A model generated the notes under the pieces. The model searched no databases, had not been told where the DNA came from, and saw nothing but the letters and a program-made list of their open reading frames with translations. Positions 37,805-40,201 of a stretch of DNA of 40,201 bases are shown here, piece after piece; position 1 is the first letter of the stretch, and each line of letters starts with the position of its first letter. A program made the position numbers and the translations under genes. This stretch comes from an uncultured Bacteroidales bacterium (GTDB taxonomy: Bacteria; Bacteroidota; Bacteroidia; Bacteroidales; UBA932): the NCBI GenBank assembly GCA_900320185.1, contig ONRD01000020.1, forward strand, positions 1 to 40,201, in the 5' to 3' direction.

Positions 37805-37881
37805 GGCGGGGTAGCTCAGCTGGTTAGAGCGTCGGATTCATAATCCGGAGGTCGTGGGATCATGCCCCACCCCCGCTACCA
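37805..37881 (+). tRNA. tRNA-Met (anticodon CAU), CCA encoded
   Basis: 77 bases. The acceptor GGCGGGG pairs with CCCCGCT (one G-U pair); the anticodon arm TCGGA-TTCATAA-TCCGG gives CAT. The first pair is not the mismatch of initiator tRNA and the stem lacks three G-C pairs, so an elongator type is likely; a lysidine-modified isoleucine tRNA cannot be excluded. The T-loop reads ATCATGC rather than TTCRANY. The 3' CCA is encoded, unlike the neighbouring tRNA-Gln. Confidence 0.9.
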
Positions 37882-37897
37882 ATCAAATTGCACGGCA

Positions 37898-38626
37898 ATG
37901 GCTAACGCATTCCATTATTCAATCGGCAGGAAGCTGATCCAGGCTGTCAGCGGTGCTTTCCTTATAGTTTTCCTGCTCCTCCACGTTACCATCAACCTTT
38001 TTTCTGTGATCGATTCCTTTACCGGGAAATTCGGAGCAGTAGCCGACGACGACACGCTATTCTCCCATGGTGACGGACTCTTCAAGCTTGGCTGCGACTT
38101 CATGTCGACTTCCTTCATCGACATCATGGTCCCCATCCTTGCCCTCGGATTCCTGGTCCACATCGTTTACGGCTGCATCATTTCCTACAAGAACGTCAAG
38201 GCTCGCGGCGGACTGAAGCGTTACGAGTCGAAGAGCGTCGCTGCCGCTGATTCCTGGTCTTCCAAGAACATGTTCGTCCTTGGAATCGTGATCCTCGGCC
38301 TGCTGTTCTTCCATCTGAGCCATTACTGGGCAAAGATGCAGATGCCCGAGCTTTTCGGAGTCGGAAACTTCGAGAACGATCCCTACAAGCTCCTCACGGT
38401 CACTTTCGGATCCTGGTGGATGCTCCTTATCTACCTGGTATGGTTCGTCGCCATCTGGCTCCATCTCTGCCATGGGTTCTGGTCCATGTTCCAGACTGTC
38501 GGCTGGAACAACCAGGTCTGGTTCAAGAGGCTGAAGGTCATCGGAGTGGTTGTCGCCACGCTGATCTGCCTTGGCTTCGCCGCAGTGGCAGTGAACGCTT
38601 TCGTACAGGCGAACTTCATTTCCTGA
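37898..38626 (+). CDS. sdhC: Succinate dehydrogenase/fumarate reductase cytochrome b subunit
   Basis: 242 residues, five membrane helices, the one-piece diheme type of Bacteroidota. Helices with candidate heme His: GAFLIVFLLLHVTINLF, IMVPILALGFLVHIVYG, GLLFFHLSHYWAKM, LVWFVAIWLHLCHGFW and VVVATLICLGFAAVAVNAF. It anchors the flavoprotein and iron-sulfur subunits and passes electrons to or from menaquinone. In most relatives sdhA and sdhB follow at once; here a 216-base gap and trpB2 follow. The ATG at 37898 is used because the longer frame starts inside the tRNA. The start lies 16 bases after the tRNA end. Confidence 0.93.
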   Translation: MANAFHYSIGRKLIQAVSGAFLIVFLLLHVTINLFSVIDSFTGKFGAVADDDTLFSHGDGLFKLGCDFMSTSFIDIMVPILALGFLVHIVYGCIISYKNVKARGGLKRYESKSVAAADSWSSKNMFVLGIVILGLLFFHLSHYWAKMQMPELFGVGNFENDPYKLLTVTFGSWWMLLIYLVWFVAIWLHLCHGFWSMFQTVGWNNQVWFKRLKVIGVVVATLICLGFAAVAVNAFVQANFIS

Positions 38627-38634
38627 CGGATTTG

Positions 38635-38666
38635 CTTGCATTTTAGATTCTAATTGCTCATATTTG
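38635..38666 (+). promoter_or_regulatory. Promoter of the trpL-trpB2 unit
   Basis: CATATTTG (38659-38666) matches 7 of 8 positions of TAnnTTTG, and CTTG (38635-38638) lies 20 bases upstream. The leader ATG at 38673 is 6 bases below the -7 box, so the leader peptide message would be leaderless or have a very short 5' end. Confidence 0.5.
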
Positions 38667-38672
38667 TTGGCG

Positions 38673-38729
38673 ATGGTACACACGACGGACAGATTCTTCT
38701 GGTGGCGCACTTGCAGTCGAAAGCTGTAA
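38673..38729 (+). CDS. Tryptophan-operon leader peptide (TrpL-like)
   Basis: 18 codons, MVHTTDRFFWWRTCSRKL. Two adjacent Trp codons (38700-38705), preceded by two Phe codons, lie eight codons before the stop. Tandem Trp codons in such a short ORF are very unlikely by chance, and it lies directly upstream of a tryptophan synthase beta gene. The product is expected to be made only so that ribosome position reports charged tRNA-Trp. The stop TAA (38727-38729) lies within the antiterminator strand of the attenuator. Too short for ordinary gene finders. Confidence 0.8.
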   Translation: MVHTTDRFFWWRTCSRKL

Positions 38730-38798
38730 GTCGATCGTCGTAGTTACCCTCCAACAGGCAGATACAGGTGGCACGCTGACTTACAGCGTGCCATTTTT
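38710..38798 (+). promoter_or_regulatory. Tryptophan transcription attenuator (mutually exclusive hairpins)
   Basis: Strand 1 CTTGCAG (38710-38716) pairs with strand 2 CTGTAAG (38724-38730; 7 bp with one G-U). Strand 2, extended as GCTGTAAGTC (38723-38732), is perfectly complementary to GACTTACAGC (38778-38787), the antiterminator. That site overlaps the loop and 3' arm of the terminator GGCACGCTG (38770-38778) / CAGCGTGCC (38784-38792), which ends in a T-run. A ribosome stalled on the Trp codons covers strand 1 and frees strand 2, so trpB2 is transcribed; one that reaches the stop codon covers strand 2, so the terminator forms. Without translation, 1:2 and the terminator form. Confidence 0.8.
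38770..38798 (+). terminator. Intrinsic terminator of the trp leader
   Basis: A 9-bp GC-rich stem (GGCACGCTG / CAGCGTGCC) with a 5-base loop, followed by ATTTTT. It lies 45 bases before the trpB2 start codon, so it must be conditional for the gene to be expressed from the leader promoter. Confidence 0.88.
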
Positions 38799-38842
38799 CA
38801 TTTTACGCCCAATAACAGTCAAACCATAAAACAACAAGACAA

Positions 38843-40201
38843 ATGAGACAGAAAAAGTACTTGCTTCCGGAATCGGAGATTCCCACGCACTATTTCAACA
38901 TCCAGGCTGTAATGCCCAACAAGCCGTTGCCTTTCCTCAATCCCGCCACCCGCGAGCCGATGAAGCCGGAGGACCTTTACCCCATCTTCTGCAAGGCCTG
39001 CGCAGACCAGGAGCTCAACCAGACCGACGAATGGATCCCCATCCCGGAGGCGGTCCGCGAGCAGTATGCGGCCTACCGCTGCACCCCGCTCGTCAGGGCA
39101 TATGAACTGGAAGAGGCGCTCGGTACCCCAGCCCACATCTTTTTCAAGAACGAGAGCGTGTCTCCGGCAGGAAGCCACAAGCTCAATTCCGCCATTGCCC
39201 AGGCCTATTATGCCAAGGAGCAGGGCGTGACCAACCTGACGACCGAGACCGGAGCCGGCCAGTGGGGCGGAGCCCTCAGCTATGCGACCAAGAAGTTCGG
39301 CATCGACTGTGCCGTGTACATGGTCAAGGTCAGCTACGAACAGAAGCCTTACCGTCGTTCGATAATGCAGACTTTCGGGGCCGCCATCACACCTTCTCCG
39401 TCGATGTCGACGCGTGCCGGCAAGGACATCATCACCCGGAATCCCAACGACCGCGGATCCCTTGGATGCGCAATCTCCGAGGCGATAGAACTGGCGATGA
39501 CCACGCCCAACTGTAAATATGCACTGGGTTCCGTGCTGAACCACGTCTGCCTGCACCAGACCATAATCGGCCTTGAGGCCGAGAAGCAGATGGCCCTCAC
39601 AGGCGAGTACCCGGACATCGTCATAGCTTGCTTCGGCGGCGGGTCGAACTTCTCCGGCATCGCATATCCCTTCATGCGCCACAACATCCAGGAAGGCACG
39701 AAGACCCGCTTCATCGCGGCGGAGCCTTATTCGTGTCCGAAACTGACCAAGGGCAAGTTTGAATATGATTTCGGGGATGAGGCCGGGATGACTCCGCTGC
39801 TTCCCATGTACACCCTCGGACACAGTTTCAAGCCTGCCTCCATCCATGCCGGCGGTCTCCGCTACCATGGCGCCGGAGTCATCATGTCGCAGCTGATGAA
39901 GGATGGCTACATGGAAGCAGTCGACATCGAGCAGCTTGAATCGTTCAAGGCCGGCGTCCTGTTCGCCCGTACGGAAGGCATCATCCCTGCTCCCGAGTCC
40001 TGCCATGCCATCGCCGCCACCATCAGGGAGGCACTCAAGTGCAAGGAGACAGGCGAGAAGAAGACGATCCTTTTCAACCTTTCAGGCCATGGCTTCGTGG
40101 ACATGGCAGCCTATGACCAGTATTTCTCCGGCGAGATGCAGAACTACCATGTCTCCGATGCGGACCTGGCGGAGTTCATCAAGTCGGCCGACGCGCTGAA
40201 C
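38843..40201 (+). CDS. trpB: Tryptophan synthase beta subunit, TrpB2 type (3' end beyond window)
   Basis: 453 codons are visible to the last base without a stop. The PLP lysine is in SPAGSHKLNSA (family motif with K), the ETGAGQWGGAL segment holds the catalytic Glu, and CFGGGSNFSG binds the cofactor phosphate. The long N-terminus (YLLPESEIPTHYFNIQAVMP) and the HSFKPASIHAGGLRYHG region mark the TrpB2 branch (COG1350), which condenses indole or a related molecule with serine and lacks the normal TrpA-contacting surface. No trpA or other trp gene is in view. Expression appears tied to tryptophan supply by the attenuator directly upstream. The ATG at 38843 follows an A-rich leader without a Shine-Dalgarno site. 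Confidence 0.93.
   Translation, partial: MRQKKYLLPESEIPTHYFNIQAVMPNKPLPFLNPATREPMKPEDLYPIFCKACADQELNQTDEWIPIPEAVREQYAAYRCTPLVRAYELEEALGTPAHIFFKNESVSPAGSHKLNSAIAQAYYAKEQGVTNLTTETGAGQWGGALSYATKKFGIDCAVYMVKVSYEQKPYRRSIMQTFGAAITPSPSMSTRAGKDIITRNPNDRGSLGCAISEAIELAMTTPNCKYALGSVLNHVCLHQTIIGLEAEKQMALTGEYPDIVIACFGGGSNFSGIAYPFMRHNIQEGTKTRFIAAEPYSCPKLTKGKFEYDFGDEAGMTPLLPMYTLGHSFKPASIHAGGLRYHGAGVIMSQLMKDGYMEAVDIEQLESFKAGVLFARTEGIIPAPESCHAIAATIREALKCKETGEKKTILFNLSGHGFVDMAAYDQYFSGEMQNYHVSDADLAEFIKSADALN

Follow-up and report, generated by a model that had tools for sequence, protein, structure and literature searches.

A predicted tryptophan-responsive transcription attenuator in front of trpB2 in Bacteroidales

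Main finding

The short region between sdhC and trpB2 in a stretch of 40,201 nucleotides of DNA from an uncultured Bacteroidales bacterium (the window, meaning the whole stretch that was analysed) is, with a probability of about 0.88 on sequence evidence, a tryptophan-responsive, ribosome-mediated transcription attenuator that senses charged tRNA-Trp. A reading frame with tandem Trp codons, an intrinsic terminator, an antiterminator that competes with the terminator and a helix 1:2 that competes with the antiterminator were all found there. Attenuators of this kind have already been catalogued in the Bacteroidota, and what appears to be new is the target, trpB2.

Layout of the leader region

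All features lie on the forward strand. The leader is preceded by sdhC (37862-38626), which is on the same strand as trpB2, and contains a leader peptide ORF of 18 codons (MVHTTDRFFWWRTCSRKL, 38673-38729) that ends with the stop codon TAA at 38727-38729. Its tandem Trp codons TGG TGG (38700-38705), the putative sensor, directly follow TTC TTC. Strand 1 (38710-38716) is complementary to 38724-38730, and the resulting helix 1:2 has 7 pairs, one of them G-U. These bases belong to strand 2 (38723-38732), which overlaps the leader stop and can alternatively pair with 38778-38787 to give an antiterminator core of 10 pairs; this second partner is made up of the last base of the terminator 5' arm, the loop and the first four bases of the 3' arm. 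The predicted intrinsic terminator (38768-38798) has an 11-pair stem, a 5-nt loop and a T run at 38794-38798, its core stem being 38770-38778 with 38784-38792 and two extra pairs being possible, which extends it to 38768-38794. The gene for the TrpB-like PLP enzyme, trpB2, follows at 38843-40201, its reading frame still open at the contig end. The folding of RNA 38673-38800 is 4.7 s.d. better than that of its shuffles. The ORF, the three helices, the terminator and trpB2 were all located where an earlier note on this DNA had put them.

Conservation of the leader in related loci

The related loci are the best 80 of 461 confirmed trpB2 matches, with titles that name Bacteroidales, Bacteroidia or Prevotellaceae and frequently mention a sample from a ruminant gut; L055 and L077, with less than 100 nt upstream, were set aside, leaving 78 informative loci. 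A leader was scored when a short ORF started by ATG contained TGGTGG and lay no more than 300 nt from trpB2, the Trp-Trp pair itself being the search criterion. Such an ORF is present in 73 of the 78 loci, the same search gave none on the 78 reverse strands, and 50 doublet shuffles averaged 0.58 (maximum 3 of 78), so that the conserved Trp codons which the earlier note had proposed to look for in relatives are indeed there. By the same ORF criterion, the Trp-Trp leader is absent from five of the 78 (L005, L013, L052, L070 and L076). In a protein tree with an unsettled bootstrap and many open forks, used solely for this placement, L005 is the nearest row to the protein of the window.

With the window added, the 73 loci from the best 80 of 461 give a set of 74 leaders, in 68 of which, the window included, the residue following the Trp pair is Arg. 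They fall into two sequence types, AB (56, including the window) and C (18); taken at face value, the starred branches of the protein tree, with the forks just mentioned, force at least five changes for type C. An automatic rule detected a hairpin followed by a T run in 69 of the 74 loci, and none in L051, L065, L069, L080 and L081.

Three mutually exclusive helices

The type AB alignment holds 42 non-redundant sequences, in which TGG TGG is invariant by construction. In the terminator, 10 of the 11 pairs change on both sides, with a covariation of 0.513 against a shuffled mean of 0.222, a value reached by 0 of 500 shuffles. In the antiterminator core, 93.3% of cells are paired and 8 are two-sided, versus 1.8 in shuffles (0 of 500 as high); a control in which the antiterminator was slid gave more, namely 19 two-sided cells, but with 33% of cells paired. 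The perfect 10-bp antiterminator of the earlier note is present as 10 pairs in the window, but its outermost pair (38723-38787) is not conserved and forms in only 17 of the 42 sequences. For helix 1:2, 92.9% of cells are paired, with no covariation beyond shuffles in these 42 sequences (a score as high in 488 of 500), and four rows of a WWW.LQL subtype are apparently out of register there.

The type C set (18 loci, 17 distinct rows) has the same architecture in other letters, with 97.1% of cells paired in helix 1:2, 97.8% in the antiterminator and 94.1% in the terminator, and covariation scores that were matched by 10, 0 and 0 of 500 shuffles, respectively. Although these counts ignore kinship and the structures were derived from the very sequences tested, the comparison indicates that the terminator covaries strongly and the antiterminator modestly, and that helix 1:2 is conserved. 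The covariation that the earlier note had suggested seeking upstream of related trpB2 genes was accordingly found for the terminator, the antiterminator and type C, but not for helix 1:2 in type AB. The best evidence that the pairing matters is that both types possess three mutually exclusive helices while differing in their letters.

In all 69 loci in which the automatic rule detected a terminator, the best duplex between the region after the Trp codons and the terminator contacts the 5' arm, the loop and the 3' arm. The core of the antiterminator is directed at the loop and the 3' arm in type AB and at the 5' arm and the loop in type C; in the window it pairs with the loop and the 3' arm, and additional pairs reach the 5' arm. 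The window differs in this from the fold of E. coli trpL, where the partner of strand 2 is the 5' arm of the terminator. The classic enteric mechanism invoked by the earlier note has to be qualified on this point.

Folding with a ribosome on the leader

The competition between the helices was followed in transcripts that end at the third base of the terminator 3' arm, with the edge of the ribosome assumed to lie 12 nt beyond the first base of the A-site codon, and the readout was the mean probability that the 5' arm and loop are paired upstream. This value exceeded 0.5 in 69 of 69 loci when the ribosome was placed at the first or the second Trp codon, against 9 of 69 with the ribosome at the stop codon; the cut RNA of E. 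coli trpL gave 0.42 when stalled and 0.03 at the stop. Transcripts without a ribosome exceeded 0.5 in 33 of the 69 loci (the window is conspicuous here with 0.92, versus 0.24 in E. coli trpL), which means that helix 1:2 is not always the winner; in this model, untranslated leaders may permit read-through. Equilibrium folding of the complete leader was set aside as a test of mechanism, as E. coli trpL, the control, does not pass it either. In most states the complete RNA favors the terminator, even when the ribosome is stalled at Trp (terminator mean of 0.73-0.80 in 52 loci of type AB and 0.76-0.77 in 17 loci of type C, and 0.61-0.90 in the window), and this is read as a limit of the test because E. 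coli trpL behaves likewise (0.92-0.94 when stalled).

A promoter-like box close to the start codon

The promoter consensus of the Bacteroidota is TAnnTTTG, and the sequence CATATTTG at 38659-38666 is presumably such a promoter box with one mismatch. Together with a TTG at 38636-38638 and a spacer of 20 nt, it forms a putative Bacteroidota-type promoter (38636-38666). A [TC]AnnTTTG box lies at most 45 nt from an in-frame ATG in 63 of the 74 leaders (best 80 of 461 plus the window); the closest pair of box and ATG is 6-10 nt apart in 62 of these 63, and a TTG is found 19-20 nt before the box in 50. The box is present in 23 of 26 trp leaders from other families, and in 22 of the 23 it lies 17-49 nt from the ATG. 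The distance is 6, 7, 7 and 14 nt in the four trpB1 leaders with a box from the genus of the window, and 21 nt in both leaders of a second trpB2 type (L145, L148; see below). A short distance is not, then, special to trpB2.

In Bacteroides promoters, transcription starts a few bases after the box. A start just past a box that is 6-10 nt from the ATG would make the leader mRNA leaderless or nearly so. Two reports on the trpL of Sinorhizobium meliloti and the trpL1 of Streptomyces lividans describe leader mRNAs that start at the leader ATG (PMC7298713, PMC8079986); the leaderless state is a reported one in these two organisms, whereas in the window it is suggested by the position of the promoter-like box.

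Proposed mechanism and alternative explanations

The component parts, together with their conservation and mutually exclusive pairing, lead us to infer a transcription start, translation, stalling and termination that would be linked as follows. The leader would be transcribed from the promoter just upstream, and a ribosome would start the leader ORF at the 5' end of the RNA or very close to it. When charged tRNA-Trp is scarce, this ribosome would stall at TGG TGG and cover strand 1, so that strand 2 could pair with the emerging terminator sequences and trpB2 would be transcribed. With charged tRNA-Trp in good supply, the ribosome would arrive at the stop codon and cover strand 2, the terminator would fold and trpB2 would be off. 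Indole salvage would in this manner be switched on only when tryptophan is short. Stalling at Trp codons, alternative helices and an intrinsic terminator, all proposed in the earlier note, gain support from the comparison of related loci.

The hairpin might instead do no more than terminate the upstream sdhC transcript, with the short ORF being incidental. The position of sdhC, which ends at 38626 on the same strand, would fit this, as would L005, L013 and L070, where inspection by eye shows a terminator-like hairpin after the upstream gene and ahead of trpB2, although no Trp-Trp leader is present; against it stand the leader in 73 of 78 loci from the best 80 of 461, the complementarity of strand 2 that is kept in both sequence types, and L014 and L018 (of six loci for which ORFs were listed), which have the leader even though the ORF directly upstream is not sdhC. 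An sdhC terminator alone is thus a highly improbable explanation. Hardly any more credible is a leader that works through control of translation or through Rho and not through an intrinsic transcription terminator, because a hairpin with a T run is present in 69 of the 74 loci and the stem in the window ends 48 nt before the ATG of trpB2, which lies outside the stem and is left uncovered; the five loci of the 74 in which the automatic rule found no hairpin directly before a T run are the ones that would agree with it.

The earlier note had described an FFWW leader peptide, and the TTC TTC immediately before TGG TGG in the window raises the question of whether phenylalanine is sensed as well as tryptophan, the more so as L014 and L020 have a prephenate dehydratase gene beyond trpB2 and frr on the same strand. 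The Trp pair stood up to comparison, but Phe did not: any Phe at all is found in 39 of the 74 leader peptides, and the residue preceding the Trp pair is F in 34, N in 20 and W in 8, which indicates that the two Phe residues in the leader of the window do not belong to a conserved sensor. Sensing of both amino acids is accordingly very unlikely, and the element is best read as an attenuator that would respond to tryptophan.

Relation to known leader families

No leader family of Rfam matched the window at its cut-off. The best match is RF00513 (Trp_leader), the family with which the earlier note had proposed a comparison; at 23.3 bits (E of 0.012 in 301 bases and 0.022 in the genome) it falls short of the 41-bit cut-off. 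Matches of the window to Six3os1 and HOTTIP were discarded as chance, and a second RF00513 candidate in the same genome (L002, E of 0.05) was dropped, there being no recognisable trp gene nearby. E. coli trpL is identical to window positions 38700-38712 at the corresponding stretch, TGGTGGCGCACTT, and this common sequence may reflect ancestry, transfer or convergence.

There is no support for regarding such an attenuator as unexpected in the Bacteroidota: Rfam already contains RF01692, the 'Bacteroidete tryptophan peptide leader RNA' (Bacteroid-trp), listed in 2010 as a probable cis-regulatory motif (PMC2864571). RF01692 was found in 16 of 198 sampled Bacteroidales genomes (10 above the cut-off), followed by trpB1 in 13 cases (one at about 0.9 kb), trpE in two and a contig end in one, and in no case by trpB2. 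These sites resemble the window, being from the same phylum, having a WW or WWW leader in 16 of 16 and, as judged by eye, a strand that spans the stop codon and is complementary to the loop and 3' arm of the terminator. RF01692 itself has no match in the window, nor in its genome at E 0.001 (family cut-off of 49 bits), and none in the 28 loci scanned from the related set (best 80 of 461; 20 searched at the gathering threshold, 8 at E up to 1); a trpB2 leader from another family (L202) reaches 40.8 bits against the cut-off of 49. R1, a covariance model derived from the 42 trpB2 leaders, recovers 15 of the 16 RF01692 sites at E 0.012 or better (84 kb), the sixteenth being cut by a contig end. 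Common descent of the trpB2 leaders and RF01692 appears likely from these sequence matches; R1 also finds E. coli trpL (28.4 bits), meaning that shared function alone could explain part of the scores.

In Corynebacterium diphtheriae, a classical Trp attenuator is predicted upstream of an operon called trpB2A (PMC1262725). There, in the Actinobacteria, trpB2 precedes trpA in a biosynthetic operon, whereas the window has a TIGR01415-type gene and no trpA was found in its genome. A literature search with partial coverage, and hence weak evidence of absence, found no description of a Trp attenuator on a trpB2 of the Bacteroidota.

Distribution in the genus and the order

A scan of the 198 Bacteroidales genomes with R1 matched 53 of them at E 0.05 or better, and the 30 loci that were examined lie before trpB1, trpE, trpD or trpB2, apart from several without a leader or trp gene, which look like chance matches. 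One of these loci (L118, 1425-1640, G178:C29) has a WWW leader and a terminator directly before trpD, the latter assigned by TIGR01245 with 291 bits against a cut-off of 199. The R1 scan of the order had suggested that trpB2 attenuators are confined to the genus of the window, and this was overturned by a direct survey of trpB2 genes. TrpB2 is present in 68 of the 198 genomes (E 1e-80 or better), and the regions upstream of the other 67 trpB2 genes were inspected, one with only 128 nt and one from the genus of the window. A Trp-rich leader (WW or WxW) with a terminator precedes 24 of these 67 genes; the rule was chosen after a first look, and controls under the same rule gave 0 of 67 on the reverse strands and 0 in each of five shuffles. 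R1 has same-strand matches over the leader in 18 of the 24 at E 0.04 or better, and an Rfam scan of 20 of the 24 yielded none at the cut-off of a leader family, the best being the 40.8 bits with RF01692 noted above. Trp attenuation of trpB2 would therefore seem, by sequence, to be spread across the order, in a minority of trpB2 genes by the WW/WxW rule, and such attenuators appear largely to escape the current Rfam models.

Within the genus, 19 regions (17 weak and two strong R1 matches) comprised four leaders of trpB1 operons, two of a second trpB2 type, the two strong trpB2 controls and 11 without a convincing leader, so that many weak R1 matches are due to chance. The second trpB2 type (L145, L148) has Trp leaders of its own (MMNINKYWWWCPLQLKWS; MKFRTNNYWWWRSYNSDSRRRLQP), and the trpB2 of L145 is 54.6% identical to that of the window. 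A further trpB2, 85% identical to that of the window, occurs in a genome of another family (L161, G178:C54:39438-40796), with one in-frame TAG in the search and a leader similar by eye to those of type C (MKQIHIQALFFFWWRLTDTSGQCLA), which suggests transfer of trpB2 plus its attenuator between families.

TrpB2 and the supply of tryptophan

The protein encoded from 38843 is of the TrpB2 type, with NF009057 and TIGR01415 both above their cut-offs; the latter, at 592.9 bits against 518.85, places it in the family. The best matches among solved structures are 6hul, 4qys and 6hte, whose chains carry the names tryptophan synthase beta chain 1 and 2. A search of the genome of the window, which is 92.8% complete, found TrpB2 only and no TrpA, TrpB1 or indole-glycerol-phosphate synthase (IGPS), and the remark of the earlier note that TrpB2 is controlled here instead of a trp operon can thus be sharpened. 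Since none of these three enzymes was found in that genome, TrpB2 probably serves in indole salvage, making tryptophan from scavenged indole and serine. Of a Bacteroides TrpB2, BT_RS23500, it is reported that a trpA-deleted E. coli benefits from it only beside wild-type E. coli, which its authors interpret as the use of secreted indole (PMC11535334).

IGPS occurs in 13 of 100 genomes of the genus that are at least 85% complete, and R1 matches in 46, of which 35 are strong (E under 1e-10). One of the 35 strong-R1 genomes has IGPS as opposed to 12 of the 65 others (Fisher p 0.03, uncorrected for kinship); genomes with type C leaders, which score weakly with R1 (8 of 18 at E 0.05 or better), are counted among the 65.

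The earlier note had called trpB2 isolated. The contig of the window ends within the gene; in two relatives, L014 (4463-7137) and L020 (4460-6033), frr and a prephenate dehydratase gene lie downstream of trpB2 on the same strand. L014 also has an aminotransferase gene downstream, and the frr of L020 was assigned from the similarity of its start only. In these two loci, trpB2 may form part of an aromatic amino-acid gene cluster.

On balance, we favor a broader picture in which the stand-alone trpB2 genes of the Bacteroidales belong to a Trp-attenuation regulon, and in which clades that lost the tryptophan pathway would keep the attenuator on trpB2 alone, on a nearly leaderless mRNA, admitting indole cross-feeding only when charged tRNA-Trp is short. 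Regulation of its own would tie TrpB2 to the tryptophan supply in bacteria that are seemingly unable to make tryptophan from chorismate, and it predicts when gut and rumen Bacteroidales would use the indole made by their neighbors.
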